The position numbers and the translations under genes were made by a program. Shown here piece after piece: positions 12,909-39,139 of a stretch of 39,456 bases of DNA (position 1 is its first letter; each line of letters opens with the position of its first letter). Source of the DNA: Spirogloea muscicola (Eukaryota > Streptophyta > Zygnematophyceae > Spirogloeales > Spirogloeaceae); assembly GCA_009602725.1 (NCBI GenBank), contig WELB01000016.1, positions 1,085,146 through 1,124,601 on the forward strand. Direction: 5' to 3'. Below the pieces are notes generated by a model. That model had not been told where the DNA came from, did not search any database, and worked only from the letters and a program-made list of their open reading frames with translations.

Positions 12909-13011
12909 GAGGGGCGGCGCAGGGGCAGGGGCGAGGAGGGACGGGGGTTTGCGGTGTGGGGGTTTAGGGGGAACAACAGCTTCTTCCCAGGCGGCGTACA
13001 GAAACTGGCCT

Positions 13012-13091
13012 TCGGGCTGGCCTCTCCGTGCAGGGATAGTTTACCGGCAGCTAGTCTGTCGGATGTGAGGCTCCTCACTCGTAACTACTAA
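13012..13091 (+). pseudogene. LINE ORF C-terminus (5'-truncated copy)
   Basis: The frame reads 'SLPAASLSDVRLLTRNY' followed by a stop. It matches the conserved C-terminus of the LINE family in this window and starts about 100 bp upstream of the eIF3L start codon. The copy is truncated to fewer than 30 codons. Its 3' UTR opens with 'gtggtccatcctccccc', as does the copy at 36243, which marks one 3' UTR subtype. Confidence 0.7.
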
Positions 13092-13130
13092 GTGGTCCAT
13101 CCTCCCCCGTTCTGCGATAGCCTCTTCAGG

Positions 13131-13234
13131 CCCCGCAGTCGCTGCTTAGCTCGTAGTTTGGCCCCTTCGAACCTTGTCAATTCTTTTCGGGCTGGCTTCT
13201 CACAGCCCTTGCCCCCATTGGGAGAGCCACTTCT
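13131..13234 (+). repeat. LINE 3' UTR unit, direct repeat copy 1
   Basis: A 104-bp unit runs from 'ccccgcag' to 'gccacttct' and contains the hairpin core gggctggcttctcacagccc. It recurs 246 bp downstream with only about two differences, in the same orientation. Confidence 0.85.
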
Positions 13235-13376
13235 TCTTCCTCTCCGTGCAGAAACTGGTGAGGGTGAGACCTTAGTAGCCACGAGTGGACCCCCTGGTTC
13301 TACGTGCTGACTCGCGGTTACTCAGCGGGTCTGCTTAGCGGCTGAGCACCATTCTGTGGCCTTCGTGGCCTGCGGA

Positions 13377-13480
13377 CCCCGCAGCCGCTGCTTAGCTCGT
13401 AGTCTGGCCCCTTCGAACCTTGTCAATTCTTTTCGGGCTGGCTTCTCACAGCCCTTGCCCCCATTGGGAGAGCCACTTCT
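13377..13480 (+). repeat. LINE 3' UTR unit, direct repeat copy 2
   Basis: This is the second copy of the 104-bp unit at 13131-13234. Between them lies 'ctgactcgcggttactcagcg', a trace of another LINE ORF end. The pair shows that one 3' end landed next to an older one. Confidence 0.85.
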
Positions 13481-13482
13481 GC

Positions 13483-13600
13483 GGATATTGTCCGTTCTTT
13501 CCTGGGCTGGCTTTGCCAGCCCGTCTTCTTCTATGAGAAGGGCTCGCCCATTGAGGAAAAAGCTGGAAAAGCTGGAAAAAGCCAGCCCAGAAAAGAATGA
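13483..13600. repeat. Tail-to-tail pair of LINE 3' hairpin units
   Basis: A plus-oriented unit (ggatattgtcc, then the hairpin at 13504-13522) is followed within about 40 bp by an inverted unit ('gggctcgcccattgagg', 'aaaagccagcccagaaaag'). The result is a near-palindrome of two opposed 3' ends. Confidence 0.7.
13504..13522 (+). other. Perfect 3' UTR hairpin (8-bp stem, TTT loop)
   Basis: GGGCTGGC-TTT-GCCAGCCC. The same 19-mer recurs at 14292-14310, with variants at 24774-24792 and 25550-25568. Confidence 0.8.
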
Positions 13601-13651
13601 ACAAAGGACGAGAAGGGGCCAGGGGAAGTACGAAGAAAAACAAGCACAGAA

Positions 13652-13827
13652 AAGGTGTACCGCATGCGCTTGGCCGTCTCGCTGCAGAGGTCTATGGCCC
13701 GCGCGCTGCACCTGCGTGCAGGCAGAGCCCTCGCTAAAATTTCGCTGCTGCCTCTGGCTCTGGCCAGGGGACCCGCTTCCAGGAACCCAGTCTCTCTGAC
13801 CTGAGGCTGCTTAGCAGGGGTTACTGA
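13652..13827 (+). pseudogene. LINE ORF C-terminus with internal duplication
   Basis: The sequence encodes 'YRMRLAVSLQRSMARALHLR', then, after a small frame-breaking insertion near 13735, 'FQEPSLSDLRLLSRGY' and a stop. The tail resembles the copy ending at 33236 (FQEPSFSDLRLLSRGY), so these two belong to one subfamily. The frame break makes it a dead copy. Confidence 0.75.
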
Positions 13828-13897
13828 GTGCTTCGTAGCTGCTTCGTTTCTATGGGCCGCTTTCTGCTGAGCGGGTCCCTTTTTCCGCCGCCGCCGC

Positions 13898-14086
13898 TTC
13901 AACGCCGCCGGTTCGCTCGCACAAGTCTTCCGCATGCGCCTGGCCGTATCGCTTCAACGCTCCCTTGCCCACGCCGTCCACACGCGAGCAGGCCGTGCTA
14001 TGGCCGCCGCCTCTGGGTCTCGGCGCAGTGCCTCTTTCCCTGCAGCGAGCTACTCAGACCTGATGTTGCTCACTCGTGGGTACTGA
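13898..14086 (+). pseudogene. LINE ORF C-terminus, 63-codon copy
   Basis: An intact frame runs from 'FNAAGSLAQVFRMRLAVSLQ' to 'SYSDLMLLTRGY' plus stop. It has the same length as the copy at 24487-24675 and differs in only a few residues (for example F for C after AQV), suggesting recent dispersal. It is 5'-truncated, as reverse transcription of LINEs often leaves. Confidence 0.85.
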
Positions 14087-14253
14087 ATTTCCCTCTGCAT
14101 CGTCTCTGTGTTCTGCAGTGTTTTGTAGTGTAGTCCCTTTGTGCCTCTTTCCCTGCAGCGAGCTACTCAGACCTGATGTTTGCTCACTCGTGGGTACTGA
14201 GCTTTCCTCTGCATCGTTTCTGTGTTCTGCAGTGTTTTGTAGTTTCTCCGGCT
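14028..14253 (+). repeat. Tandem duplication, period 113 bp
   Basis: Two units begin with 'gtgcctctttccctgcagcg' at 14028 and 14141. Each holds the last 20 or so codons of the LINE ORF and the first part of its 3' UTR ('ctgcatcg...tgttctgcagtgttttgtag'). The second unit has one inserted T, so the ORF end is out of frame there. Confidence 0.85.
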
Positions 14254-14267
14254 CCTCTTTCTTTGGC

Positions 14268-14465
14268 TTTGGACATTGTCCATTCTTTTTTGGGCTGGCT
14301 TTGCCAGCCCTTCTTCTCTATGGGCGCGCACTTCTTCTTTTTCCCCCTTTGGGAGAGCCAGTTCCCATGGCAACATGTGGTGTGCATCTGTCGATGTGCT
14401 AGCCTGTGTCCTTGGCCACTCGGGCCCTCCATCACTCAATATACACTTCATCCTTCCTGAACAGG
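14268..14465 (+). repeat. LINE 3' UTR with two hairpins, upstream of L-galactose dehydrogenase
   Basis: In order: ggacattgtcc (small hairpin), an 'attctttttt' spacer, the perfect hairpin at 14292-14310 (8-bp stem GGGCTGGC/GCCAGCCC, TTT loop), 'cttctctatgggcg', and the 'ggccactcgggccctcc' box that also precedes the Sec39 gene. It ends about 70 bp before the L-galactose dehydrogenase start codon. Confidence 0.8.
14292..14310 (+). other. Perfect 3' UTR hairpin (8-bp stem, TTT loop)
   Basis: Identical to the hairpin at 13504-13522, and placed 13 bases after a ggacattgtcc mini-hairpin, as in the other LINE 3' ends. Confidence 0.8.
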
Positions 14466-14534
14466 GCGCTGGCTTGATGTGGCGTCGCTTTGACGTCCTG
14501 CGCACATCGCCCTCGTTCGTTCTTCGTTCCTGCC

Positions 14535-16329
14535 ATGGCCACCGCAGCGTGCACGAGCGAGGCCGCCGGCCTGCCGCGCCGCGCGCTGGGCGCCACCGGC
14601 CTCACCGTCTCGGCGCTCGGCTTCGGCGCCTCCCCGCTCGGCAACGTGTTTGGCGACGTGCGCGAGGCCGACGCCCGCGCTGCCGTCGCCGAGGCTCTAC
14701 GCCTCGGCATCAACTTCTTCGACGTCTCCCCGTGCGCGCACTCCCTCGCACTCCCCGCCCCACTCCCGCGCTGCCGCCAAGCCTCCGTCCCTGACCCGCG
14801 CCGCCCCCTCCCGCCGGCCAGGGCAGCTTCTACGGCGCGACGCTTGCCGAGACGGTGCTGGGCAGGTGCCTGCAGGGCGTCCCCCGCGATGCCTTTGTGC
14901 TGTCCACCAAGGTCGGGCGGTACGGCCAGGACGAGTTCGACTTCAGCGCCGAGCGCGTGCGCGCCAGCGTGCACGAGAGCCTGCAGCGGCTGCAGCTGGA
15001 CTTCATCGACATCATCCAGTGCCACGACATCGAGTTTGTGCCCCTCGATGTGGTGAGAGGTGCTTGTGGGGCTAAGGGCCTCCTGCTTGCTGCAGAAGCG
15101 GGCACCTACCGCTCAATTGCACGTAGGTCAGCCATTGGCAACAGGAGCCCCATACTTCGGCCTAATCTTCTGGTGCCTTGCTGGAAGGAGTGAACTGGGT
15201 CAAGCAACGAAGATGCCTAAACAGGAACATGCCAGCCATGTGACCCTGCTCAGGGGCGTGTGCTCATCTCCCCAGGTTGTTACGGAGGCGCTACCGGCCT
15301 TGAAGCAGCTCAAGGACGAGGGCAGAGTGCGCGCCATTGGCATCACAGGCTTGCCCCTCAAGGTTTTCCGGCAGGTGCTTGACAGCGTGGAGCCTGGGAC
15401 CGTGGACGTCGTCCTCTCCTACTGCCACAACAGCCTCAACGACACTGCTCTTCTGGACATGCTGCCCTTTCTCCAGGAGAAGGGCGTCGGCGTCATCAGC
15501 GCCTCCCCTCTCTCCATGGGCCTACTAACGGAGCAGGGGCCTCCACCCTGGCACCCTGCACCTGCTCATGTGAAAGTGAGCTTGGTTTCCTGGCGCAGCA
15601 CCTCGACCAACAGATGGCAACCATGGACCTTGCAGGCCGTGCATTGACCGACGTGTCTTCAAAGGATGGAGACTACTGTGTTGACCTCTTCCTGTATGGG
15701 CTGACGGTGATTGCTCAGGAGGCTTGTGCAGCAGCTGCCTCCCTCTGCAAGGCCAGGAAGCAGAACATCGCCAAGGTCGCACTGCAATTTGCCCTTCAGG
15801 ACCCCAGGGTGGCTTCTACACTAGTGGGCATGAGCTCCATCGAGCAGGTAGTTGAACATGTCTGCGGCTCCAATCATATGGCAATGTGGACACAGTCACG
15901 ATGGCAGGTTGCAAACCTTGGCCAGAGATCCGGATATCTGCCAGATTTTCCATGTTATCTGTTATACAAGGACCGTGCCAGATTGCATCCATTGCATCAA
16001 GCATCTCTGAAGCTGGGTCTGAGGTAACGGGGTTGAGGTCTCTGTATTTCTGCATTGGTATCGTACAATTTTGGTCAAAGCTCTGGGGTGTAACAAAAAC
16101 ACTAGGGTTCGGAGCCTGTGGTCTGCCATGGCTGAGGGTATAACATGGAGCACGGTGTGCTTGTGCATTGTTCTGCTTGTGACGACAGGTGAGAGAGAAT
16201 GTGGAAGCTGCAGCAGAGTACTTCCAAAGGAGGTCAGACACAACCATGATAAAAGAGCTTGAGGACATACTGAAGCCTGTTAAGAATGTCAGCTGGTTCA
16301 GTGGCTTGGAGCAGAATAACCAAGGGTAG
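14535..16329 (+). CDS. L-galactose dehydrogenase
   Basis: The enzyme oxidises L-galactose to L-galactono-1,4-lactone with NAD+, the penultimate step of ascorbate synthesis in the plant/algal Smirnoff-Wheeler pathway. Five exons keep frame: 14535-14731, 14827-15052, 15276-15575, 15719-15847, 16189-16329, giving 330 residues (the plant enzyme is about 320). Aldo-keto reductase features: 'GFGASPLGNVFG' near the N-terminus, and the catalytic tetrad Asp63 and Tyr68 ('FFDVSPFYG'), Lys94 ('STKVGRYG') and His132 ('QCHDIEF'). 'IGITGLPL', 'VLSYCHNSLND' and 'ISASPLSMGLLTEQGPP' are signatures of the L-GalDH subgroup. It ends 'ILKPVKNVSWFSGLEQN', like the plant protein. No transit peptide is evident, so it is probably cytosolic. 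A TGACGTC element (bZIP-type core) lies at 14491-14497, 38 bp before the ATG. Its neighbour on the left is divergent eIF3L; the gene converges on BolA4. Confidence 0.95.
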
Positions 16330-16837
16330 CAATCCAGATTATTCTGCTATATTTGCCATTTACAGCGCTATGCTTGGCATGGCGAGGGACTGGTATTTCA
16401 CTTTGACCACATTGGGCCAGATATGGGATAGTGGGCTTCGAGGCCTGCATGCCAGTCCTGATCAAGGTGATGCTGAAGCCGATGGCCAAAAGCGTCAATG
16501 TAGATACTCGTCCCTTTGAAGAATGTTTAACAGAGTTGACCTGAAAGCCCTGCATCACCACTCTAATGTGGCTACTACTGGAAGGGGCTGCACACTCGGT
16601 CAGGCTGGATGTAGGAGTGATGATCAATTGTGATGAATTTTTTGGCCGAGGAAGAAGGGCTCTGCGAGAGACCTTGACTGCACATTGTCACTTGCATTAG
16701 CCAAGAAGCGAAACTGGCACGTATGCACACAGACTACATTGCTCCTCTCTTTTAGTGCAAGTCGCAGAGTTGCACTTGGAGGTATATAGGTGCCTTAGTG
16801 ACGAGCATTACTCCGAGCTTATGGGCCTTCTGTATAT
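16330..16837. other. Convergent 3' intergenic region, no gene seen
   Basis: This 508-bp gap separates the L-galactose dehydrogenase stop (+) from the BolA4 stop (-). Only short ORFs without recognisable motifs are present; it is probably 3' UTR of both. Confidence 0.6.
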
Positions 16838-17598
16838 TCAAGACGATGTTCCCTCGACCTCAGCAGGGGTCCTTGTAGTCATGGAGTCCACAGCATGAAC
16901 AGTGCTCTGCAGCTCCTCCCAGATGGCCTTGTACACCATCCGCTGCCGATTCATGGAGCTGAGGCCCTCAAAGGCGGGAGATACGACATAAATGCTGCCA
17001 TGAGCAGCTTCAAAACCAGTCAGTCACTGTCATTGTCCTCCTACACAGGTATAAATTTGGCTGAAAGTATGCCCCTGCCATCGAAGATGCAAGCCCCGGC
17101 CACACATCCTGCTCAGGCGCGCTGCTGGCAGGCAGATGGAGCACACCCCCTGGCTTCGATGAAGCTCCGTGCGGAGCGCGCAGGCGTCGTGCTGCGAGGG
17201 AGAAGGCTGAGTGGGCAACCTGACGTGGCGGCCATCGCCGTACGCGTCCTTCACGAGAACCTCCTGCGCCTCCAGTGCCTCCTTGATCTGGTCGAGCGTC
17301 ACGGAGACCAAGCCCGTCAGGTTAGCGAGCTTCCCGCACGCACGCCGAGGCGAGGTTGGCCAGCTCCCGCGCGTGGCAGAGGGGGTGGCGCCAGGAAGGC
17401 GCGGAAGGCTCTCTTGGCAGAGCACTCGAGGACATGGCGCGTGCGAGAGCCGGGAGCCGGGCAGGGGATGGAGCTGGGCGCCGAGCAAGACGGCGGATGG
17501 GCAGTGCGTGGCAGAGGGGGGAGGACCTTGGCCTGCATGGCGGCCATCTGGGGGGAGTCGATGGAGCCCGGGCCGGAGACCTGGAGGGAGGCGCGCAT
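16838..17598 (-). CDS. BolA4-like organellar BolA protein
   Basis: BolA proteins bind monothiol glutaredoxins through a shared [2Fe-2S] cluster and act in iron-sulfur cluster handling; plant BolA4 is found in plastids and mitochondria. Exons keep frame: up to 17598-17527, 17287-17220, 16994-16838. From the Met at 17598 this gives 98 residues. Exon 1 carries '[16 protein letters not shown]', the motif that opens mature plant BolA4. Then come '[19 protein letters not shown]', the helix-turn '[18 protein letters not shown]' and '[11 protein letters not shown]', with the C-terminal His of VHA as the likely cluster ligand. The frame stays open upstream of 17598 with an Arg/Ser/Pro/Ala-rich stretch ('RPPRPSRAARLSARPAPRR') typical of an organellar transit peptide, but it runs into an adapter sequence at 17715, so the true start is probably missing. 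It is divergent from NOG2, about 240 bp apart. Confidence 0.88.
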
Positions 17599-17691
17599 GG
17601 GGGGCGCGCCGGAGAGGTGGCGCCGGGGCGCAGGGCGCGCGGAGAGGCGGGCAGCCCGCGACGGCCGCGGCGGCCGCGACGCGGCGGCCAG

Positions 17692-17715
17692 AGATCGGAA
17701 GAGCACACGTCTGAA
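17692..17715 (+). other. Illumina TruSeq adapter sequence left in the assembly
   Basis: The 24 bases here begin AGATCGGAAGAGCACACGT and match the start of the standard TruSeq read-1 adapter without a mismatch. Translated, they give the well-known contamination peptides 'RSEEHTSE', 'DRKSTRL' and 'IGRAHV' on plus and 'FQTCALPIS' and 'LFRRVLFRS' on minus. The junction falls in the region shared by the BolA4 and NOG2 starts, so the sequence on either side may not be contiguous in the genome. Confidence 0.95.
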
Positions 17716-17836
17716 AAGGGAGTAGGGTTGTGTGGCCCCGCCCTGGAGGCGCCGTGGGTTCGGGGTGAGCGCGGCTGGCCTGGCCTCGGTCTCGGGACTC
17801 GGGCTGGGCCTCCCCGCCGCCGCCGCCGCCGCCGCC

Positions 17837-20800
17837 ATGGCCAAGAAGAAGCCCGCCGCCTCCGGCGCCTCCGCGGGCAAGCCCCGCCACTCCCTCGACG
17901 AGCGCAGGTACGCCGCGCTCCCGCGACGAGGCCCGCCGCCACCGTTGGCCTGGCCCCGGCCTCCACTGCGCCGTGGCCACGCTTCTCTGGCCGCGGCCAG
18001 GCCGTGGCCAGTCCCCCCCTTCTCCTCCCCCCCTGGCCTTACACGCTTCCTGGCGCCGCCCCCTCCCCTGCCTCGCCAGGCGCGATGGCAAGGCTGGCGG
18101 CTCCGGGGGCCAGCGCTCGGCCGCGGCCGTGCGGCGCCTGCAGATGTACGGCTCGCGGCCCGTGCGCAACGCCAAGGGCAAGATCCTGCACCACGAGCTG
18201 CAGTCCAAGGAGCTCCCCTCCACGCGCATCCAACCCGACCGCCGCTGGTTCGGTGCGTCCTCCTGCCGGCCTCGCCTGCCAGCCTCTGCACGGAGTGAAG
18301 GGTGTGGCCGGGCCCTGTATGTGCTGCCCTGACCCTGCTCCTGCTGTCGCAGGCAACACGCGTGTGGTCGGGCAGAAGGAGCTCGAGCGCTTCCGCGAGG
18401 AGATGCGCACCAAGGCGGGGGACGCCTACACAGTCGTCCTCAAGGACAAGAAGCTCCCTCTGGCCCTCCTCAACGACCGCCACAAGGTGTGCACCACGTG
18501 CTTCGTGGAGCTCTTGCTGGCAGAGCCGGCCTTCCTCTGCAGAAGGCAAGAGCGCAGAGCAGCCCTGACAGCAGGGGTACTTGTGTGCAGCAAGCGCGCG
18601 TACACGTGCTGGACACGGAGAAGTTTGAGGATGTGTTTGGCCCCAAAGCCAGACGCAAGCGCCCCAAGCTCGTGACTGACGACTATCAAGCCCTGCTGGA
18701 CCAGGCTGCTGCAGTGCAAGGTGCGCTCTGCCACTGTAGGTGATGATAGAGGTGGTCGTTCACGCGTGCTAGTAGGTAGACCTGCTGCTCTCTGCAAGAG
18801 ACAATAGTCGTGCTTGTCGCGATCTTAGCTTGCTCAACGAGGAATGCTCTTAGGATTGTAACAGCGAATGGGTATTGTAAGTCCACCCTCTTTGACGCGC
18901 TGGTCTGTGGGCATTGTGCGCGAGTGTGCAGGGTCATTTACTGATAAAGTAGACAATCAGACGGATGCGGAGGTGGCGGCCGCAGGTGACAGGCAGGAAG
19001 GCATTCGGCCGTCGGCCAGGCACACCATGTATGAGAAAGGGCAGAGCCGCCGCATCTGGGGGGAGCTCTACAAGGTTGTTGACTCGTCCGACGTGGTCGT
19101 GGAGGCAAGTGCAGCCTGCCAAGACCGCATCTGTTTTAGTGGGCGGATTGACTCCAGTGACTGTGTCTTGCTGAGAGCTCGTTGAAAGGAGTAACAGCTG
19201 CCACCTACTGTTGCTGTGCATGATCTTCCAGAAGATATTCCAGAACTTGCAACTTTGCTTGTCAAGTGTGAGAGCTGGAGCTTGTGAGAGGAGACGTCCT
19301 AGCCTTACATGCCAATCTGGGCTGCGCAGGTGTTGGATGCAAGGGACCCAGAGGGTACGCGCTGCAAGCATTTGGAGAAGCACATCAAGAAGAACTGCAA
19401 GCACAAGCACCTACTGCTTCTGCTCAACAAAGTGCACTCCACAACCTGTCTCAGCAGGCACTTGAGGCATTGTAACCTGCCTATACAGTCACTCGCCATC
19501 TTTGGATGGCGACGACCTTGTCTTGTGATGAGTGTAGAAGTCACTGGCAGAAGATATATTGCCAGTGGGCATCCTTATGTAACAAAGCTCGTGCAATGAT
19601 CCTTTCTCCACGGCTACTTTGAGACGAGTGATATTATAAGAAAGAGATACTGGAGGAACGACGAGTGCCTGACTCCTGGTTGTGCGCTCTTTGATGCAGT
19701 GTGACCTTGTACCATCGTGGGTCACCAAGGGCTGGTTGCACGCGCTGTCCCGAGAGTATCCAACGTTGGCCTTCCATGCCAGTGTTACAAATTCTTTTGG
19801 CAAGGTGCAATTCCTCATGTCCTTCACAGCATCCTGCTGTTAGCATGCCGTGACATTGTGCCCCGGCTTGCACAGTCTCAGCACTGACAAACTGGACATC
19901 TGATGCCAACTCCACCTTACTCTGTGCTGTTGTGAAGGGTTCTTTGCTTTCATTGCTGCGGCAGCTGGCAAGATTGAAGAGTGACAAGCAGGCAATATCT
20001 GTAGGTTTCGTCGGCTATCCCAACGTTGGCAAGTCTTCCGTCATTAACACGCTTCGGACCAAGAAGGTTGGAGCAACTTCTCACCCATCCGCTTGCTGCT
20101 AACGCTGGTTCATTTGTTGTGAGCTGCTTGACTTTGATGGAAGGCGTCTTTTCCCGAAATAGTGAGCCCCGCAAGCCCCTGCTCTTCTGTGCCTCTTACA
20201 AGGTCTATAATGTGAGACCATTGGCAGGTCTGCAAAGTGGCGCCAATTCCAGGAGAGACCAAGGTCTGGCAATACATCACGCTGATGAAGCGCATCAATC
20301 TCATTGACTGTCCTGGCGTGGTCTACCACAGCAAGGACAATGAGACTGATATTGTCCTCAAGGGTGTGGTGAGTGGGAGCAGAGTTATGCAGATGTCTTC
20401 AACTCTATGTGGTCATTTGATCAGTGATGTTGGCATGAGAGGGGCCATGGGTGGCATTCTGTTCTCTGCGCGTTCTCGGGGGAGGGGTCTACTTCACATA
20501 ATTTGACTCTCTCAGCGCACAGCTTGAGTCAACATCATGAATAATGCTCAGCGGAGCTTTGTGGTTATCTTTTTCTTTGAGGAAGCTTCTTCTTTGTTTA
20601 GCCAGCAAGCGTCATAGGCCCAGCAGCATGTCCTGCTCAACCGATTTCAGTGGACACAAGCTAACCATCTTCGTCAACCTACCTTCACCAGGTCAGAGTG
20701 CAGAACTTGGAGTCACCTGCCGAGCATATCTCAGAGGTACTGAGGAGAGTCAAGAAAGACTACCTTATCAGAGCATATCGTGTCCAGGAATGGTACGTGC

Positions 20801-24396: not shown

Positions 24397-24675
24397 GCTA
24401 TTGTCAGCCGCTGGCTGGATCTCCTTCAGCGGCTTGCCCGCCAGGCCATCGACCGGCGGCCGGGTCTGCCAGGGCCGATGCCCGGCTTCAACGCCGCCGG
24501 TTCGCTCGCCCAAGTCTGCCGCATGCGCCTGGCCGTCTCGCTTCGACGCTCCCTTGCCCACGCCGTCCACACGCGAGCAGGCCGTGCTATGGCCGCCGTC
24601 TCTGGGTCTCGGCGGAGTGCCTCGTTCCCTGCAGCGAGCTACTCAGACCTGATGTTGCTCACTCGTGGGTACTGA
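24397..24675 (+). pseudogene. LINE ORF C-terminus, longer copy
   Basis: The frame reads 'SRWLDLLQRLARQAIDRR', then 'FNAAGSLAQVCRMRLAVSLR', and ends 'SYSDLMLLTRGY' plus stop. The first block aligns with 'ARWLELLNQLSRQAIVRR' in the copy at 32841-33236, so these residues follow the endonuclease-like domain. It starts only 40 bp upstream of the QCR7 start codon. The last 63 codons (24487-24675) are nearly identical to 13898-14086. Confidence 0.85.
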
Positions 24676-24955: not shown

Positions 24956-25230
24956 ACGAAGAAAGAAAGTGCTCGCCCATAGAGAAGAAAATTTTCGTGT
25001 ATTTGAAGCAATCAGAGAAGAGGGGCTGGCAAAGCCGGCCTAAAAAGTATGGGCAATGTCCAAAGCCAAGGAAGAGGTGCCGAAAAAGGACTACACCACA
25101 AAACACTACAAAAGACAAAACGATGCAGAGCTCAGTAACCGCGAGTGAGCAACATCAGGTCGGAGTAGCTCGCTGCAAGGAAAGAGGCACTCCGCCGAGA
25201 CCCAGAGGCGGCAGTGGCCAAAGAGAAGCA
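24956..25230 (-). pseudogene. LINE ORF C-terminus plus 3' UTR, inverted copy
   Basis: On the minus strand the ORF end (stop at 25132-25134) is preceded by residues like 'SASFLAASYSDLMLLTRGY'. It is followed, toward lower coordinates, by the 3' UTR with 'gggcaatgtcc', 'ggggctggcaaagccggcc' and 'gtgctcgcccatagagaag'. It is the mirror image of 24600-24955. Confidence 0.75.
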
Positions 25231-29056: not shown

Positions 29057-29759
29057 GGTAGTCAGGTCAACATCATGTCAACCCATATCTGGCCCCAAGA
29101 CTTCTCACCGAGTTTGGCAGTCACTCTGTCACGGCTGGTGTAAACCCCTTGCCATTACCTTCCTTGTTTGGATCAACAATCAGAAGTTCCCACCAATTTG
29201 AGGACCCCAGGAAATCAACAGCTTGTGATACTGGTCCCGCCAACCACTTCAAGCGAGGATATTCAGGCAGTCACAGCAGTGGAAGAGGTTGTTGCATCAC
29301 AGTGCAAAGATTGCCCTCGTCCCCTGACGAGTCAGAAAGTCAAATTGAAAACCACGTGCGGGTGTGAGGGCTGCTGTTGCACACATTCTTTCAAATACAT
29401 TTCAGACGAGCTATTGCACGAGGGCCTGATTGAAGCAAATGCGGGAAGCTTGTGAAAGCCATCCTTGTGAAAGCCACCAAGGTTCTCCGTGTTCAAGGCA
29501 GCCGTTGGAAGATGCAGCATCTGGATTGTAGGATGCTGTCTGGTCACAATTACAATAGAGAGCCTTGGCCGTGCCCAGTGCAAGGGTCAGTATGCAACAC
29601 TTCGTTCAGGCATGCAGACGACCTCCAGCTGAAAGTCAACACCTAAACTTGTGCAATTGCCATAAGCAGCAACACAGCAAAAGCATACTTTTCCTTTTTG
29701 CGGATGGGCTCCGCTCAAACGCCAAGCCAAATAAAAGGAATGGGTACTGGCAATATTCT
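29057..29759. other. GMPPA downstream region, no gene recognised
   Basis: An ORF of 95 codons (29168-29455, +) has a cysteine cluster 'CGCEGCCC' but no homology I can name and no spliced partner. Most of the stretch is probably 3' UTR and the start of the LINE array. Confidence 0.5.
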
Positions 29760-30117
29760 GAAGGAGAGTGTGGAAGCGAGGACCCAGACAGCCAAAGATG
29801 TCGACTGCCACTGGCAGGAGCTGATTGTATTGGGAGTAATCGGAGTAGTGCTGCAGCTTTCTTTGTTCTGCACCGCTCACTGCGTGGCCAGCGATGTGTG
29901 TCGATGCTGGACCTTTATACGCCTCCGTAACAACGACATCGACCAAGGCCCGTAGTCCTCCACCAGGTTGCACGCCCACAATGTCAAGTGTGCAGCGATG
30001 ATGACGTCCCTGGGCGTCCGTGGTGATAGGCATGATGTTGTTGACTTCCACGACCGCACGGTAGCCGGCGTCGCGCACCAAGCCCGCCAGGGCATCGCGG
30101 AGGAGGTTGTGGATGCC
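29760..30117 (-). pseudogene. LINE restriction-like endonuclease domain fragment
   Basis: On minus: 'HNLLRDALAGLVRDAGY', then 'CTLDIVGVQPGGGLRALVDV' followed by VVTEA, then 'AEQRKLQHYSDY' and 'VAVDIFGCLGPRFHTLLQ'. Asp in 'LDIVG', Asp in 'LVDVVVTEA' and the Lys in 'QRKLQHY' fit the D...D...K pattern of PD-(D/E)xK nucleases found after the reverse transcriptase in R2-like LINEs. The fragment is broken on both sides. Its 5' side is joined to a LINE 3' UTR in the same orientation, so it inserted into an older element. Confidence 0.75.
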
Positions 30118-30560
30118 CACCACTTCTAGTCCAGTGGAGCAAAGTGGGGGCAAGGGCTGTGAGAAGCCAGCCCGAAAAGAATTGACAAGCGTCAAAGGGG
30201 CCAGATTTCGAAGGGAGGGAGGGGCTGGGTTGGGAAAGGCACGAGAAGAAAGACGCTTCCAGGAAAGGGCGGTGGCTGGGAGAGGCCAGCCCAGCAAAAA
30301 GAATTAGCAAAGTCCGAAGGGGCCTGGGAAGCGCTAAAGCACACACGGAAGCGAGAAGCTACCTACCACTCACAAACAGAAGAAGAAGGGCTCGCCCATT
30401 GAGGAAAGGGGCTGGGAAAAGCCAGCCCGAAAAGAAAGCGCGGCCCAATTGACTGGTGGCTTTGAGAAGTGGCTCTTCCAATGGGGGCAAGGGCTGTAAG
30501 AAGCCAGCCCAAAATGAATTAACAAGGTTCGAAGGGGCCAAACTACGAAGGGGCCAGAGG
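30118..30560 (-). repeat. Stack of at least three LINE 3' UTR units
   Basis: Read on minus there are hairpin blocks at about 30140-30180 (agaagccagcccgaaaaga), 30270-30300, 30390-30430 (ggctgggaaaagccagccc) and 30480-30520, each with 'attcttttcgggctggc' and 'ggccccttcg' companions. No complete ORF end lies between them. They look like successive insertions of truncated elements into each other's 3' ends. Confidence 0.7.
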
Positions 30561-30592: not shown

Positions 30593-32645
30593 TCAATAAC
30601 AACGAGTGAGGAGCCTCAAATCCGACAGACTAGCTGGCGGGAAACAATCCCCCTGACGAAAGCCAGAGGCAGCAGCGAGAGCACGGCCAGCACGCAGGTG
30701 CAAAGCGTGGGCCAGGGATCGCTGAAGGGATACGGCTAATCGCATGCGTTAGACTTGGGCCAACGAGCCAGCGGCGTTGAAGTTAGCCTGCTCACTTCGC
30801 CTGGGACACTGCGCGTCGCGCGAGCCCTGCCAGTAGGTCGAGCCACTGGGACCCGAGAGCCCCGTGCACATCCACGGCTGGAATCGAGTACCCCTGTACT
30901 CGTCCCCAGCCGGGTGGTCAGCGAGTTTGACGGCCTTGCTGCGAGCGGCGTTCGCCGCAGCATGGCCAGCCCTCGAGGCAGAAAGGCCCGGATTGGAGCG
31001 GTCCACCTTATCAGTGGTGACCACATCTGCAATGATGCGCGCGCCGCCTCCTGGCGTGAAGGCCACCAGGTCGACGCGGCGCGTGTGTAGGCCCTCCGCC
31101 TTCTGAAGGATTGGCATGACCGAAGTATTCTCCAGCGCTACCGAGTAGCCGGCCTCCTGGAAGATGCCAAACATGGCATCCCTGAGGAGGTCGTGGGCTG
31201 CCGGGCGTCTCCTCCAGTGGCGCACCGGAGGACGTGCGCCGCCAGTTCCGCCGGGTCCGCCGACCGATCCCCGCACTCGCACTGGAGCACGCCCTGGAGA
31301 CAGGGCGGGGGAAGACCCAGTAGGCGATGGGGGCCGCGCGGAAGACTTCGTCCGGCATCCGGAGTGCGTCATAGAGCGGAAGCGCCGAGAGCCAGGCTGC
31401 CGCGCCAGGGGAAGAGCCGGCAATGCCCGCGCACGTCGGTTGGAGGGAGGAGCTGCAGCGTGGCCGTGAAGGCCGCCTTGTCGATCACCGCCATGTAACG
31501 CGCCTGCACCCACCAGTCAGGGGAGTGGGCCAGATGGGCCAATGGGCACCACGCCCTCAGCTAGGGCTGGGTACTCGGCGAGTAGCTCTAGTTGAGCAGA
31601 GCGGAGCGCCACCTGGAACGGCAGCGAGCCGGTCTCCACGTCCGCAGCAGCCTGCTGCAGCGGGGGCCGCCCGTCGAGCACGAAGCGGTGAGCCACCGAC
31701 GATGCGACCTGGGCCCAGCTGCCGAGCTACGCTGGCCTGCAGGTGCGTGCGAGCGAGCGGCAGCCGAGGCCGCCCTGGGCGAGGGGTAGAGTGGCCTGGT
31801 GTACAGCCGCAGGCGTGTTGAGGAAGCCGGTGTGACGGATGAGGGCCGCCACGCTCTCCGTGACGCCCGGTGTCGCACGTGGCGTAGGCCTCCAGCACCT
31901 CGGGGCAGGGAGGGGCAGCCCGCGCAAGGTAGTGCGGCCGCTGCACAATGCTTCTGGTGAGCATAGCCAGGGCCAGCTGCATATTCTGCAGCTCGGGGAG
32001 GCGGGCCGCCGGTCGTAGGTGCTCCTGGAGCCGGGCCCGCAGCTGCTCGTTCACGAAAGACGGTGTGCCGAGGGAGGCCCCTGGGATGGTGAGGCCGCCC
32101 GGAGGAGTCTGGCACCCTGTGGGCAGAGGCAAGGGGGCAGGAAGGCCGCGAGGAGACCACGCTACGCACTTCTCGGCCCGAATGGTCAAGCCGAGGGCGG
32201 CCAGCTGCTGCTGGAGGGTGGCGGTGGTTGCCAGCACGTCCTTTGGGCTGTCGACCAGTGTTGTGTCGTCGGCGTATGTCGGCAAGAGGACGCTGGGGTG
32301 CGCCGCCGCGGTAGCCTTCAGAACGCGGCAGTGAGCCAACGCCAAAAAAAACGCCTGCCAAATGATCCCCCTGGCGTGTGCCCGTCCTCGATTGCAGCGT
32401 CTCCACCCCACCACTCCCCGTCCCCCACAGAAGGTCGCTGGGCTGGCAGTAGCCAAGGCGGAAGAAGGGAAGGAGGGAAGGGAAGGCAGCTCGTAGCTCC
32501 TCGGCGATGGCGTTGCGCTCTACGCTGTTGAAAGCGTTTTGCACGTCGACAGCCAGGACCATCCAGTCAGGGTGGAGATCGAGGGCCGCGCGGACGCCGT
32601 GGACGACAGCCTCCTCGCCGCTTCGTGGCCCAGCGCCGTATTGAT
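30593..32645 (-). pseudogene. LINE with reverse transcriptase and endonuclease-like domain, degraded
   Basis: This is the longest LINE copy here, reading 32645 down to 30593. The reverse transcriptase part has 'QYGAGPRSGEEAVVHGVR', 'LAVDVQNAFNSVERNAI' (first catalytic Asp region), 'QGDHLAGVFF' and 'LLPTYADDTTLV' (YADD box). About 300 residues later the endonuclease-like part has 'HDLLRDAMFGIFQEAGY', 'RRVDLVAFTPGGGARIIADV' followed by VTTD, and Lys in 'ARSKAVKLADH'. It ends 'FNAAGSLAQV', an in-frame stop at 30749-30751, then 'RMRLAVSLQRS' and 'LLTRCY' before a final stop. Frame changes between the RT segments (for example near 32560 and 31557) show it is inactive. The N-terminal part before RT motif 2 is missing; the truncation point is fused to another copy's 3' UTR. 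Confidence 0.85.
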
Positions 32646-32822
32646 GAGGGGCAAGGTGGGTCTGCGCCTGCCCGAGGCTGTGAGAGGCCAGCCCAAAGGA
32701 ATGGACAAGGTCAGAAGGACCCGGATGGCGCAGAATAGAAGCAAGGTACTAAGTGCTAAGACGGCAGCCAGGGGACTCTCAGTAACCTCTAGTCAGTAGA
32801 TGCAAACCGGAATAGCTAGCAG
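32646..32822 (-). pseudogene. LINE ORF C-terminus and 3' UTR into which the RT copy inserted
   Basis: On minus a frame ending 'HLLTRGY' plus stop (32779-32781) is followed by a 3' UTR with 'attcctttgggctggcctctcacagcc' features at about 32680-32705. The UTR is cut by the 5' end of the RT-bearing copy at about 32645, giving a nested head-to-tail order. Confidence 0.65.
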
Positions 32823-32840
32823 GCGGATAGACATATCCTT

Positions 32841-33236
32841 GACGTGGTGACCACAGACGCATGCGACCCCTCACACCCAGCCCAATGTGCCACCAAGGCT
32901 GGGTATACGGTAGCCTGTGCCGCTCGGGCCAAGGAGCTCAAATACGCAGACAACCTGCGGGAAGACGAGTTTTTCCCGCTCGCCATCGACACGCACGGGG
33001 CGTTGGGCGCTCGGTGGCTCGAGCTGCTCAATCAGCTCTCACGTCAAGCCATCGTCCGCCGCTTCCATAGGGTGCCAGTGGACTTTCATGCAGCCGGGTC
33101 GCTGCAGAGGACTACGGCCCGCGCGCTGCACCTGTGTGCCGGCAGAGCCCTCGCTGCTGCCTCTGGCTCTGGCCAGGGGACCCGCTTCCAGGAGCCAAGT
33201 TTTTCTGACCTGAGGCTGCTTAGCAGGGGTTACTGA
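32841..33236 (+). pseudogene. LINE endonuclease-domain C-terminus, intact frame
   Basis: An open frame of 131 codons starts in the endonuclease-like domain ('DVVTTDACD', 'AARAKELKYADN', 'FPLAIDTHGALGARWLELLN', 'SRQAIVRRF') and runs to 'FHAAGSLQRTTARALHLC' and 'FQEPSFSDLRLLSRGY' plus stop. It is 5'-truncated and lies head to head with the minus-strand copy ending at 32822. It is the best preserved C-terminal half in the window. Confidence 0.85.
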
Positions 33237-33259
33237 GTGCTTCGTAGCTGCTTATTTTA

Positions 33260-33380
33260 TCTTGTGCTTTTTCTTCTCAGTGCTTCCCCTGGCATTTTCT
33301 AGTACTTTGTTTTTTCTATTTTGGGCTGGCCTTTTCCAGCTCTTATCCTCTATGGACGAGCCCTTCTCTCCCCCAACCTC
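33260..33380 (+). repeat. LINE 3' UTR of the preceding copy
   Basis: 'ttttgggctggccttttccagctc' followed by 'tcctctatggacgagccctt' is a diverged form of the hairpin plus 'ctctatgggcgagc' box seen after the other copies. Confidence 0.65.
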
Positions 33381-35930
33381 ATTTTGCCCTTCTGTTGCTA
33401 AAGTGACCTGGGGCCACCGAGACGGCCCTGCGACCAGCCCGCGGCTCCACGTAGTGCAGATGACCCCGCATTCCCCTCTGCATGCCATTAGCTGGCCCTT
33501 TCCAGCCGCCCCCTTGACATCAGCAACCGCTTAGCAGATAGCACGTAAGAGCCTCGTTAGCACCCATGTTGGCTCCCACCATCGCTTGTCAAGCTCCGCT
33601 AGCTCCCTCCCAGCCTCCCTTGCGGGTCTAGATTTAGGCCACCCTTTCATTTCATGCGCACAGGCGCCTTCCCTCCCTTACGGGTAGATCAGTGTCGTCA
33701 GCTGCGCAATTTTCCGCACAAGGATCTCCAAGCTAGAAGCCCGACGCTTACATAAGCTGGAGCCCCCATCAGCCTGCACAATGCCGGAGTCTGTCCAGGT
33801 GTCGCGTTACTAGTAGGCTCTCATGCAAGGGCTTATGCGCTTCCAACTCGTGCAAGAACACAAGCCTGATCAGAGAGGGCAATGGCATATTGGGCAGCTC
33901 GAGGACACTCATGTTCTTTTGACGTTCGTCATCCTGAAGAGGTTCTTAATTGGGACATCTAAAGCCACTGGTCCCTCGCGTCGTCAACTCCGCACTCTTG
34001 TTGGTGCTACAATTCATTAAGATGCTGGGCTGTCAGGCGCGGCCACTAAGACTGGGAGGGGCTAGGCAAAGTAGAGTTTGTGTGGGGCAAGCTTCGTCAG
34101 ACACCGTGTAAAACGTGGAAATCTATTGGCTGGCCAATCATTGCTTGTGATTCTGGCTCAAGTATGACTTCACTGAGCACCAGATGACAATGGTCGTATC
34201 CAACTTCGTGTGTGCCCGAGGTGCAATTCTGCTTGCGTCAGTAACAGCCGTGGCTTCACCTTTCCTGTGTATTGGCTCTGATACAAGGAAAACGCGCATG
34301 TCAGGGTCGGAACTGCAGCTTGACTTGCATGCAAGGAGAGAGGGGAGGCTGACAGTGACGTCAGCGGAATTCAACTCCCATGGTTGGCGTCTCAATGGCA
34401 GGAGATACAGACAGCCAGATGCATAAATGATTCTTAGCCTTGTAGCATACATCTTCAGCAGCGTTTGGCAGCAGTGGGTCAAAGAGACGACAGCAAGACG
34501 ACTATCTACTTTCAAGCAACTCTCATTACTTACAGTAACAAGTCATCTTCTGAATGTCCTACTCCAAGTAAATTGAGCTATCGGCGTAAATTTGGTTCTT
34601 CAGCAGGAATTGCACGACATTCTGAAGGACTAACCGCATCTTCTTGGCTATGCATTATACACCTCATGTGCATCTTGCTTCTAAAGCGTAGAGCTTAGAA
34701 TGAGAGACGTAAAGGTGGTTGAGTGTGTCGTTACGTGCAAGCGAATGGAGCCAGCAGATTTACTTTCACAAATTTCGCGGTCCTTACTTTGGAAGTTACG
34801 ATAGTCCAAGAGAACTTTGTTTTGTTACACAGCGTGTGCTACTAGATTGCAGCAGACCCTCGGTAGTGTGTGACGCTTTCCAAAGCATATGTGTTGAGAA
34901 GCCTCCGTTCTGTCCTGAAGGAGTAAGAGAAGGAATATATAACTCCGGCTTGACTGTAAGGTGAAGCATGTTCGTGTCACAAATGGCAATGTTCACCCGG
35001 AATGTGTGGTAAGCGCTCTAGCATTGCAATTCCACACCAAGCTTGAGAACGAGTTTGCTATGAGTGGGACTTGTGAAATCAGGCGCATGGAAGTAGCAGA
35101 TGGTGCTGATCTGCGCACATCTGGGCGTGCCCTGCTTGCTGACAAATATAAACATGCAGAATAACACTCACGTTGAAATTTTCTCTCAAGTACTTGAGAA
35201 TTTCGTTACTCACGATGACAAAACAATCTTCACTACCTTGCCACTGAGGCTCTCTGCCAGTCTAACTGATACTTTATCTTGAGTTCAGTGATGAACCACG
35301 TCTGCATATCCCTTTCGTATGCTTGTGTTTCTAGTCTCCCGATATGTCCTGCTGCAGCAGCCGCGTTCAGAGCCAGAGCAGGCACTGGTGTACTTACCTA
35401 TGAATACTATGTCAGTACTGCTTGCACATTCTCGTAAGCCCAAGGCTGTGAGACCGTGTCATGCAAGCTGCTTGCTGTGCACATGCAGCATGTCGTTGTG
35501 CCTTTCATGTACAACGTCAGTGACTGCATGCGCGAGCTGATAGCTGACTTTTCTACCCAGCACTGCGAGAAAAACGAGCTTGGCTACGCAAGCATGCACT
35601 ACTGCACCTGACCTTGCATCGTCTGCCTTGTCCTCCAGTCCCCCCCCTCTCAAACCTCGGCCATCCATTTCCCCTTCCAACGCTTAGGACCAACTGAACA
35701 TAGGCTCTTAAACTAAAATCAAGACCTCATATTTGCCACAGCACGGCAACTTGTGTACGCGCATGTTCACTCGTTGTGAGCAAGTCCTGACGACTGTTTG
35801 ATCGACTCGTCAGCTGATGCCGAGCAGCGTGCAAGCTCAAGCTCTTGAAATGCCTCGCCTAGATGCTGGCACCTCTCGTTTGACCACGGCCGCCAAGCTC
35901 CGAAGATAAAGCCGTGCTATGGAGCTTGTC
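33381..35930. other. 2.5 kb less GC-rich region without a recognisable gene
   Basis: Base composition drops visibly relative to the flanks. ORFs of 60-125 codons occur on both strands (34138-34515 minus is the longest), but none shows a motif I recognise, and no chain of exons with conserved residues could be built. It may hold rapidly evolving exons, non-coding transcript or decayed repeats. Confidence 0.5.
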
Positions 35931-36159
35931 AACAGAGGCCGGCCGCTTTCTGCGATGCACGCCGGGCGCGCTTATCGCAGGCTGGCCTCCCGCTCAACCG
36001 AGGCCTGCAAGGTTCGCGGGCTCGCGTGGCAGGCCCGAGCTTTCGGGCGCGATTGTGGAGAGTGGCGGGAAATCTGCACACGCTGCCTCGTCGCGCGGCG
36101 GCGGAGTCGGCAGCCCTCTGGCCAGCCGCGCCCGCAAGGGCAGGGCAGGTGGCGTGGGG

Positions 36160-36440
36160 AGGGCGCAGGCGGGGGCAAGGTCCGCGCCGGCGTGGAAAAA
36201 GAAAGTGGCTCTCCCAAGGGGGGCGTGGGCTGTGGAAAGCCGGGCTCTCGCTGCAGCCTCCGGCTTTCGCCAGGGGGATAGGTTTTCGACAGCTAGTCTG
36301 TCGGATTCGAGGCTCCTCACTCGTGGCTTCCGAGTGGTGCATCCTCCACCCGTTCTGCCATAGCGCTGTAGGCTCCTTCCGTCATGTGGCCCCTTCGAAC
36401 CTTTTGTCAATGCTTTTTCGGGCTGGCTTTTCACAGCCCA
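36160..36440. pseudogene. LINE 3'-end fragments in both orientations
   Basis: An inverted piece at about 36195-36240 ('aagtggctctcccaagggg', 'gggctgtggaaagccggg') is followed on plus by the ORF end 'FSTASLSDSRLLTRGF' (about 36285-36335), in which the stop codon after the conserved motif is lost. Then comes the 3' UTR block 'ttcgggctggcttttcacagccc' at about 36418-36440. Confidence 0.7.
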
Positions 36441-36705
36441 ATGGGGGGGGGATTGCGAGAAGGGGAGAAGAAGAAGATGGGGAGAGCCACTTCTTCTCCC
36501 GACAAGAATTGACGGAGGCTGGAAGGGGCCAATGGCGGAGGAGCCTGGAAGCGCCAGTAGTCAGGACGTGGAAGAGCAATCCGGGCCGGCGGGAGCACGA
36601 GCGCGCGCCACGGGGCCGCGCCTGGGGGGTTCCCAGGCTGCCCCCACGCGGCCGATGCCGCATCGCACGGCTGCCATGCGCCGCCGCGCCCCCGCCCCGG
36701 GTCGA

Positions 36706-36706
36706 N
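36706..36706. other. Assembly gap (single N)
   Basis: This is the only N in the window. The left arm of a 349-bp inverted repeat starts at the next base and sequence character changes abruptly (GC-rich before, AT-richer after), so this is likely a contig join. Confidence 0.9.
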
Positions 36707-37055
36707 ACTCAGCTCACCAACCTTGTCATACTGTCCGTTCCTTGCCACCTCCCATACCAAACTCTCTGCCTTTTCATAATTTCCTTTTCTCCCAACTATA
36801 AATCTGCAAAGCTCCAAAACTATCTGCAATGCTCCACAGTGGTAGCCATAGTAGTTGCATGATAGCCAGGCTCCTTCAGCAGGGGTGCTTTACCTGTGCA
36901 GCATACTGGACTACAACAGCTTTACAGGCGTACTACCCGACGACATGTCCTACTTGACACACATCCAAAAAATGTGAGAAGTACTTACCTTGTGCAGCTT
37001 CCAACTTCCCTGAGCTGAGGGTCATTTCAATGTGTACTTCTCCTTGCTGCAAAGC
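36707..37055 (+). repeat. Inverted repeat, left arm (349 bp)
   Basis: This arm is the reverse complement of 37180-37528 over its whole length with at least one substitution ('cataatttcc' against 'cataattccc'). It contains an LRR exon (see the LRR entry) in plus orientation. The spacer to the right arm is 124 bp of unrelated sequence. Confidence 0.95.
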
Positions 37056-37179
37056 GAAGCTCCAAATGTTGATGAGCCTCAAGGCATTAGAAGCATAGAC
37101 AAACGGTTGCTGTGCTTAAGCACTTTCATGTGAGCAACACCGTTGTCCCGTTTTAGAATGTCAAGGTTCTCTTGCTCCT

Positions 37180-37528
37180 GCTTTGCAGCAAGGAGAAGTA
37201 CACATTGAAATGACCCTCAGCTCAGGGAAGTTGGAAGCTGCACAAGGTAAGTACTTCTCACATTTTTTGGATGTGTGTCAAGTAGGACATGTCGTCGGGT
37301 AGTACGCCTGTAAAGCTGTTGTAGTCCAGTATGCTGCACAGGTAAAGCACCCCTGCTGAAGGAGCCTGGCTATCATGCAACTACTATGGCTACCACTGTG
37401 GAGCATTGCAGATAGTTTTGGAGCTTTGCAGATTTATAGTTGGGAGAAAAGGGAATTATGAAAAGGCAGAGAGTTTGGTATGGGAGGTGGCAAGGAACGG
37501 ACAGTATGACAAGGTTGGTGAGCTGAGT
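37180..37528 (-). repeat. Inverted repeat, right arm (349 bp)
   Basis: This is the mirror copy of 36707-37055. It carries the LRR exon on the minus strand, and the homology to the gene continues outside the arm: 37529-37590 on minus encodes 'CCNNLTGQIPTQITQLTN', the preceding LRR. So this arm has the longer gene context and the left arm is cut at the N. Confidence 0.95.
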
Positions 37529-37660
37529 GATCTGCGTTGGTATTTGTCCTGTGAGATTGTTGCAGCAGAGATGGCTGAAACAGCCACAACAAGCTCCAGT
37601 TACGGTGGCAAACGGGAGCAGGGTGCTGCCCTTCCCGGTGGCTCGGTGCCTTTGGGTCTG

Positions 37661-37828
37661 GTGTCCTGCTACCGTATGCGACTGTCTATGTCCCTGCAGC
37701 GCTCCCAAGCGCTTGCTTTGCACCGCCGCGCTGGTCGCGCCCTTGCAGCAGCCTCTGGCTTGCGCAGCGGGGTTGCTCTTCCTCCCCTCAGCTCATCTGA
37801 CTTCCTACTGCTGACACGGGGGTATTGA
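37661..37828 (+). pseudogene. LINE ORF C-terminus inside the LRR gene region
   Basis: The frame encodes 'YRMRLSMSLQRSQALALH', then 'LPPLSSSDFLLLTRGY' and a stop. It begins about 70 bp after the last LRR homology of the inverted right arm. A faint 3' hairpin block ('ctggctggcatttcacagcc') lies at about 37880-37900. Confidence 0.8.
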
Positions 37829-39139
37829 GGGCGCCCTGTCTGCCTAGCCTTTGGCTCCGTCATGAACACCTGTATGCATCTGGCTGGCATTTCACAGCCG
37901 ATTCTTTCATATCAGCAGCCGCTTTCTTTTTGCGTCACAGAGAATGATACTTGTCGTTGAGGCCGTCAACACACCTCACGAGAGATGTGCGTCTCTTGTG
38001 TCGCAGCCAAGTAGCGCACAATAACTTGACTGGCTATATTCCCCCTCCCTTTGCTGTCTTCTCAAAAGATGGAGGCTACTATGCAACCAATCTGACACAC
38101 TTGTAAGCTTTGTACCTGTTCCTTTCACTATATTGATCTTCTTGAAGTAGCAAGTGCAATCTGGCTTGCTAAGTACTATATGAGTGGTGCAGGTTTTACA
38201 TGCAACTCATGGCTGAGCTGATGCTTTGCCATCCCAAGTGCTGACGTAAAGTTAAATGTAAATGTAATCTGGTCATACAGCGACCTTTCACACAACAAAT
38301 TTGCGGCCGATTTCTTCCCCGAAGAACTCATATACTGCTCGAAGTTGCAAGTCATGTATGCTCCACTGCTGAAGCCCGCCGTGCAGAGTAGACAGCAGAT
38401 TTGCTGAACATCGGTGTTTATTGCACGTGCCAACTGACATTGTCATCAGGTCCTGATGTGTAAGTAGAAGACGTCTCTTTCTGATTGTCTATTCTCCTCT
38501 GCTTCACAAGTAGCAAGAGACATCGAGGTCTGGGAAAGCCATCATGGAGTTGCAACAAGGTCACAAGCAGGACTTGATGGAGTATGCTTTTCTTCGATAC
38601 TATCTCCATGTAACCACTGCCAATCTCAGTAAGCCTGCCACTGCTGTGCAGAAATTTGGCAGGGAACAGGTTTTATGGGACGCTTTGGATGCACTTTGGA
38701 AGTCCAGGCTTGAAGGACCTGGAGAAGTTGTGAGTTGGCTAACTCCCTCCAACAGCAACAGAAGACCCTGAGTCACAGACACGCCCTTCTGCAGTCACGA
38801 CCATACTGCTCTTTGCAACTTGCTGAGCAGCACAAAAATTTTGATCGCTTGACCACGGCTGAGCATCAGTCGCTTTTCCATGTGACAGCAACGTCTCTCA
38901 CAACAACTTCCAGGGAGGATTCCCCAGGACATTACTTGCACCATATGTGCATCCCAAGCTGATCTGGATAGATGTCTCATATAACTACATGGTTGGCCCA
39001 TTGTATGCCCCAGCGCCCAGCGTCAGCACTGTACCAAATTACACACATGTTATCACCGCCAGCAACTGCTTCAACAGATCATATGTGTATGCCAAATATC
39101 AAAGGCCAGCTTAAGAGTGCAAAGCACACAACACCAAGC

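Follow-up and report, generated by a model that had tools for sequence, protein, structure and literature searches.

Most long interspersed nuclear elements (LINEs) with a restriction-like endonuclease (RLE) are described as target-specific (PMC4640811; this and the other papers cited by PMC number are used in excerpt). NeSL elements target the spliced leader; HERO and EhRLE3 are named among the elements of the R2 group; and Dualen elements encode both an apurinic/apyrimidinic endonuclease (APE) and an RLE (PMC3636483). The nuclease of RLE LINEs has its catalytic lysine moved to the first K of a KX2KY motif in the second helix, a D or E closes its first strand, an RH or H/K pair opens its first helix, and the zinc knuckle has the form CX2-3CX7-8HX4C (PMC5678591). 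Here we describe a dispersed, high-copy group of elements in the genome of Spirogloea muscicola (153 Mb, 471 contigs), starting from a stretch of 39,456 nucleotides (C16:1085146-1124601), hereafter called the window. Copy limits were set by tblastn with the intact open reading frames (ORFs) of three loci (L059, L063 and L066), and the tail motif was searched in six frames. The window proved to hold many dead copies, mostly 5′-truncated, from several related families of one type of non-long-terminal-repeat (non-LTR) retrotransposon. These copies very probably derive from elements of the RLE type, whose single ORF would encode zinc fingers, a reverse transcriptase (RT), a zinc knuckle, an RLE and a conserved C-terminal tail.

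The initial annotation of the window had pieced together, from overlapping fragments, a LINE whose RT precedes a D..D..K nuclease-like domain and a conserved C-terminus. This order was confirmed on the uninterrupted ORFs of nine other copies. Ten regions were chosen from matches with long open frames, and one was excluded (L068: 1,525 masked bases, no usable long frame); the remaining nine have open frames of 1,328-1,403 amino acids (aa), all ending in SDLRLLSRGY. Five of the nine (L059, L061, L063, L064 and L067) begin at the identical base, TCCATCTGGTCG, and four of these, all except L059, share identical end bases, which gives an element of about 4.11 kb. Seven copies are 99.25-100% identical to L063 over 3.9-4.1 kb, L059 is 93.6% identical to it, and L063 and L067 are identical over 4,111 bp: the family is abundant, dispersed and recently active. 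The order in intact copies is two fingers, RT, zinc knuckle, a nuclease-like E..R-x-D..D..K series, RMRLSVSLQR, LLSRGY and stop, and a 3′ untranslated region (3′UTR) of about 125 nt. P0001, one of the intact ORFs, spans 1,337 residues from stop to stop, and its first methionine, at 39, leaves about 1,300 aa. Its CX2CX12HX3C fingers lie at residues 104 and 303 and proline-rich linkers precede the RT, which has FADD at 775. A knuckle of the form CX1CX12HX3C follows at 1110, then RRVDLV at 1177, DVVTTD at 1195, KELKY at 1225 and the tail end SISDLRLLSRGY at 1326-1337. The YADD box first reported was located in a window ORF (31557-32519, minus strand), and is FADD in the intact copies. Pfam recognised RVT_1 in P0001 (58.7 bits, cut-off 29.6), with C2H2 models below cut-off and nothing further up to E 1; no APE, RNase H or Ulp1 protease domain was thus detected, upstream of the RT or elsewhere.

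Two side observations concern these loci. In its first 2.2 kb L059 is at least 98.5% like L063; the likeness then falls to 82-92%, and to 68% in the last piece, with the step near element base 2100-2200; its 5′ flank (contig C135) is common with that of L067 (C453) and its 3′ flank with that of L034 (C28). We considered that L059 might be a template-switch mosaic, and dropped the idea, recombination or misassembly being equally likely given these common flanks. A different RT family, distinct from this LINE, is present at loci L001-L008, where the open frames of 1,172-1,237 aa are almost identical.

Among proteins of solved structure, the RT is closest to R2. Searched against the Protein Data Bank (PDB), P0001 matched three R2 sequences (E 9.7e-7 to 1.5e-6), followed by a zinc-finger chain at E 0.81. 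With the RT alone the three R2 sequences were again the only significant matches (E 1.6e-6 to 1.3e-5), the others up to E 10 including cytochromes c-551 (0.34-0.97) and two group II/retron-type RTs (0.97 and 2.2), and no RT of an APE LINE. In NCBIfam a group II RT model scored 20.9 bits, its cut-off being 300.

The domain behind the RT is a putative nuclease by motif and position. In a C-terminal alignment of ten sequences picked for open reading, nine from loci and one from the window, E76, R93, D111 and K141 are invariant and D96 is present in nine, the invariant lysine standing in KX2(K/H)(Y/H/F). The displaced lysine of KX2KY, the D or E that closes the first strand and the pair that opens the first helix (PMC5678591) have counterparts in this family. 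Several findings weigh against this assignment. The canonical knuckle was searched for in P0001 and not found, the CX1CX12HX3C motif occupying the matching place. Group 2 has KX2KH, with H for Y, distant families have KX2H(F/Y), with H for the second K, and the second copy at L066 has G in place of the D of R-x-D. A profile of the ten sequences matched no PDB chain, R2 included, up to E 10, and in Pfam only two stray families, with one member each (E 0.087 and 0.17). An AlphaFold model built from three window RLE fragments was poor, with a mean predicted local distance difference test score (pLDDT) of 41.8, and its Foldseek matches, none of them with E below 0.07, are meaningless; the order helix-strand-strand-strand-helix in the model is that of a PD-(D/E)XK core, which at this pLDDT is no evidence. 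The motifs of the nuclease proposed in the initial annotation were therefore found, and its fold was left unsupported. Finally, RLE LINEs are characterized by one or more N-terminal zinc fingers and a Myb domain; the intact ORF has two CX2CX12HX3C finger motifs, with Pfam C2H2 matches below cut-off, and no Myb match up to E 1.

How far the likeness to R2 reaches can be followed along the protein. Both have a single ORF, and R2 proteins (9nl3, 9dou R2Tg, 9nl2) are the best solved matches of the RT, at E of about 1e-6. The N-terminal CX2C..F.T..G..H fingers are colinear with those of R2, a match not significant alone, and in both a zinc knuckle is followed by nuclease motifs with KX2KY. In contrast, the fingers of this family end in C and the aligned R2 fingers in H, the spacing of the knuckle is unlike that of R2, the RLE escapes recognition by a sequence profile, and the family has the conserved LL(T/S)RxY tail. 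It is also dispersed and of high copy number. Twenty of the 68 loci were scanned with Rfam, and none had an RNA gene (rRNA, snRNA or other) at gathering score, so that neither the fixed 28S rDNA site of R2 nor the U2 snRNA target of Utopia was encountered there. Some elements of the R2 group have no fixed target, and dispersal alone may hence not be new. NeSL elements carry a Ulp1-like protease; neither this domain nor RNase H was detected up to E 1, in which the family differs from NeSL and Utopia. It resembles both in having zinc fingers and an RLE after the RT (PMC4640811). Nested insertion into existing copies and arrays of 3′ ends arising from 5′ truncation are described for Zepp and ZeppL (PMC8226300), and the present family appears to share them; Zepp, however, is an L1 element of green algae, and here an RLE-like domain follows the RT and no APE could be found. 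The single ORF, the nuclease-like domain behind the RT and the lack of an upstream APE are those of an RLE LINE. The family is best filed as R2-group-like, and the further features tested set it apart from R2 proper, NeSL, Utopia and Dualen; it looks like a new family of a known kind of element and not like a new kind. No published description of it, including the string LLTRGY, was found in a literature search that excluded most subscription papers, and no relatives were confirmed in IMG/VR and GTDB contigs.

The initial annotation had counted nine or more fragments with a conserved ORF end on both strands, and the six-frame search recovered an LL(T/S)Rx(Y/F) end at all ten places named, in the stated orientation, as well as at two further ones (Table 1). 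The motif stands directly before a stop in nine of the ten, the exception being the copy at 36285. It reads LLTRNY (13012), LLSRGY (13652 and 32841), LLTRGY (13898, 24397, 25132, 32779 and 37661), LLTRCY (30593) or LLTRGF (36285), preceded by SDL, SDV, SDS or SDF, and by SGL at 32779. The genome contains 2,807 exact matches to a 21-nt piece encoding LLSRGY and stop, and none to the same pattern written backwards, so the motif is not due to chance. Protein searches gave 16,715 first-look candidates with a 131-aa tail fragment (the best 150 scored) and 6,510 with a 255-aa RLE fragment (149 scored). Among 145 tail ends gathered by tail similarity from all loci and the window, the stop is in place in 120 and the last residue is Y in 123. 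The loci L039-L058 were picked with an RLE query that ends before the tail, and 17 of these 20 have the tail within two residues of the end; L047, L052 and L055 fall short, although the tail end of L055 is present in the collection of 145. Even families whose aligned parts have only 37% and 35% identity to L063 retain the tail (in L042 it runs FLRRRVSACLQRAQAHALHQKAGQALA..SVSDLYVLTRSY). The proposal that it is specific to one family does not hold: it is a feature of the group within the Spirogloea muscicola genome.

Beyond the stop, groups 1, 2 and 3 and two others have in common TTGTC.ATTC..GGGCTGG..CAGCC..CTTCT near the 3′UTR end. GGCTGG and AGCC are invariant in 13 sequences chosen from the 145 tails, so that covariation of the hairpin is uninformative and what is seen is conserved sequence only. 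A stricter 3′UTR pattern is found with 45 of the 145 tails, many of the others being truncated downstream or belonging to groups 4 and 5, whose 3′UTRs are different or partial. The group 1 copies L019, L025 and L034 carry a group-3-type 3′UTR end behind their LLSRGY tail, as if ends had been exchanged between families; since L025 also has a 7-bp word common to both its ends, the enzyme seems able to use either 3′ end. This hints at, without proving, RNA recognition in the 3′UTR that is common across families, and it argues against any close match between tail and 3′UTR sequence. To map what lies past the 3′ junction we used 24 of 29 loci (five lacked a recognisable 3′ end), a small sample chosen by similarity to one tail and comprising at most 23 independent junctions, as L019 and L034 have one flank in common. 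Family DNA makes up 39% of the first 15 bp, and its share is 47-49% at 15-250 bp, 39-40% at 250-800 bp and 24% at 800-1,300 bp; the same library covers 17% of the window itself. On map reading, 12 of the 24 junctions run into another copy (L030 and L031, for instance, into other tails), and L063, outside this sample, sits in another 3′UTR. The pattern fits nested insertion, or merely clustering.

Copies are strongly 5′-truncated. Exact words of L063 occur 13 times in the genome when taken at base 1, 28 times at base 1200, 120 at 2968, 351 at 3539 and 2,807 in the tail, with no match for backward controls. Terminal duplications were sought in 22 copies, namely 17 of the 29 loci L010-L038 (the rest lack an end) and the five copies that begin at base 1. 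Words of at least 5 bp common to both end regions were present in 17 copies, of at least 6 bp in 13, of at least 7 bp in 10 and of at least 8 bp in 5, against means of 11.3, 3.9, 1.4 and 0.5 with permuted 3′ flanks; the counts observed for 6, 7 and 8 bp were not reached in 300 permutations. Examples are GAAACAAA (L063), AGTAAGG (L030) and CCCATAAATAT (L021), and among the five base-1 copies the common word is 6-8 bp in three and 5 bp in two. Flanks vary from copy to copy, except for one flank of L019 and L034 and the 5′ flank of L059 and L067, and no poly-A tail was present in the flanks listed. Truncation, dispersal and short terminal duplications are as expected from target-primed reverse transcription without a single fixed site. 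Some of the data count against this explanation: the words differ in conservation, which makes the truncation gradient approximate; 9 of the 22 copies have no common word of 6 bp; the excess at 5 bp is slight (17 versus 11.3); and some words lie several bases off the ends (L021 and L036) or run into the end of the element itself (L015, L018 and L020). Given such words and the common 5′ flank of L059 and L067, the true number of duplications is uncertain.

The conserved end might be read as a 3′-terminal RNA signal needed by the RT and only incidentally open. The conservation of the downstream 3′UTR between families and the thousands of copies that retain the 3′ end would agree with this, but the way the tail varies largely refutes it. 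We made Nei-Gojobori-type counts on codon alignments of its last 52 codons. Between L063 and L059 the tail has a non-synonymous rate (dN) of 0.018 and a synonymous rate (dS) of 0.406 (proportions of differing sites: pN 0.02, pS 0.31), and knuckle and RLE have a dN of 0.063 and a dS of 0.482, so that on few changes the dN of the tail is below that of the RLE. Comparison of L063 or L059 with L040, L044, L049, L057 and L058 of group 2 yields a pS of 0.54-0.75 and a pN of 0.15-0.18, and over the listed pairs of nearer families the ranges are 0.54-0.85 and 0.14-0.27. Differences at codon positions 1, 2 and 3, summed over all pairs of twelve sequences (non-independent pairs, several of the copies dead), number 993, 793 and 1,877, so that differences at third positions are roughly double those at either of the other two. 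For the most distant sequences, L042 and the second copy at L066, constraint is less plain because a pN of 0.46-0.51 stands beside a pS of 0.67-0.69, and the third-position excess is weaker with both (28, 21 and 33 differences for L063 and L042). From these counts the tail is coding and constrained, its residues persisting between families whose synonymous sites are near saturation, and we reject the RNA-level reading of it as very improbable. A protein tail could still be the ordinary C-terminus of all RLE LINEs, R2 included, its apparent specificity stemming from the absence of a reference comparison. In favour of this, the tail occurs in families at 35-37% identity and so must be old; against it, the profile of RLE and tail matched no R2 chain in the PDB up to E 10, which says little, the RLE alone being unmatched too. 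We regard this as a real possibility, though less likely than not.

Two further alternatives concern the element as a whole, and both appear unlikely. The many short copies of tail and 3′UTR might be a non-autonomous element like a short interspersed nuclear element, riding on the LINE, and the steep rise in exact-word counts, with 351 in the RLE against 2,807 in the tail, would be in keeping with it. However, the short copies of the window begin at scattered residues (1210, about 1230-1246 and 1270 of the ORF counted from its methionine), and no head sequence of their own was seen; in the 17 copies taken from L010-L038 the first element base lies between 2615 and 3538, but these copies, having been found with the 131-aa query, are uninformative on shorter ones. 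Similarly, the family could be of the Dualen/RandI type with its APE lost or missed, as these elements are reported in green algae (PMC8226300) and encode both nucleases (PMC3636483). Pfam on the full intact ORF gave RVT_1 above cut-off and weak C2H2-type matches, with no exo- or endonuclease domain up to E 1, and the region before the RT consists of fingers and a proline-rich linker.

We therefore retain an RLE LINE moving by target-primed reverse transcription as the best explanation. To the anatomy, the selection on the coding tail, the truncation, the excess of short terminal duplications and the near-identical copies established here, the following mechanism can be proposed. The protein would bind its own RNA through the 3′UTR, the RLE would nick the target, and reverse transcription would be primed from the nick. 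A cut of the second strand with a short stagger would then leave duplications of about 6-11 bp. The tail may pack on the RLE or extend it, and help to hold nucleic acid. More tentatively, and with considerable doubt, this could be an RLE LINE lineage that has abandoned a fixed target to become a dispersed, high-copy filler of the genome. The tail would be an added nucleic-acid-binding module, a common 3′ RNA hairpin would make mobilisation across families possible, and new copies would often land in older 3′ ends. With this family it becomes possible to ask how an RLE LINE gets away from a fixed site, its tail is a concrete unexplained module, and for annotation the common tail and 3′UTR account for a large class of the genome's repeats.

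The copies and fragments in the window are collected in Table 1. In the copy with a 5′ end, positions 1277-1192 are 85% identical to bases 8-96 of E59, and a CX2CX12HX3C finger lies at 722-660 (-).

Table 1. Copies and fragments of the element in the window (window positions, strand in brackets)
Feature	Position	Remark
Longest copy	30593..32673 (-)	broken by frame changes; tblastn with L059, L063 and L066 ORFs
Longest copy, RT	32673-31866 (-)	RVT_1 weak, 19.8 bits (cut-off 29.6)
Longest copy, linker	31864-31547 (-)	tblastn
Longest copy, knuckle/RLE	31542-30752 (-)	tblastn
Longest copy, tail LLTRCY, then stop	30748-30596 (-)	six-frame motif search
Second half of RLE and tail, LLSRGY stop	32829..33236 (+)	76-79% identical to the intact ORFs; relative to other copies, about 12 codons are missing ahead of the tail
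3′UTR of the preceding copy, with GGGCTGG..CCAGC	33237..33369 (+)	blastn to 33369
Tail LLTRNY stop (group 2)	13044..13091 (+)	then 3′UTR to about 13241
Second stretch of the 3′UTR kind of 13124-13234 (family D2)	13370..13480 (+)	95% alike
Tail LLSRGY stop (group 1)	13652..13827 (+)	a frame change near 13741 must be crossed to reach the motif
Tail LLTRGY stop (group 3)	13892..14086 (+)	3′UTR to about 14339
Partial additional tail end	about 14180 (+)	additional to the ten places
RLE end and tail LLTRGY stop (group 3)	24397..24675 (+)	3′UTR to about 24819
Tail LLTRGY stop (group 3)	25132..25167 (-)	
Group-4-like tail VLTRDY	25276 (-)	additional to the ten places
Short tail remnant SGLHLLTRGY stop	32779..32811 (-)	
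Tail remnant LLTRGF without stop	36241..36333 (+)	continues into arginine
Tail LLTRGY stop (group 5)	37652..37828 (+)	
RLE domain of a more distant family	29749..30141 (-)	37-39% identity (tblastn); KLQHY and DVVVTE motifs; tail outside the fragment
5′ end and N-terminal part of one copy	660..1277 (-)	outside the region of the initial annotation

Rfam had no match anywhere in the window. Pieces of host genes were recognised by Pfam (Sec39, Paf67 and NGP1NT, together with a match to aldo/keto reductase that stays below its cut-off) among four regions, 1864-2778, 12242-12571 (-), 18333-18740 and 14478-15053. A perfect inverted repeat of 349 nt, with 124 nt between its arms, occupies 36707-37528; an ambiguous residue (X) lies at one edge of this repeat, which is perhaps a foldback, perhaps an artefact of assembly. 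The end of the window (39200-39456) is a long CT/GA-rich simple repeat.

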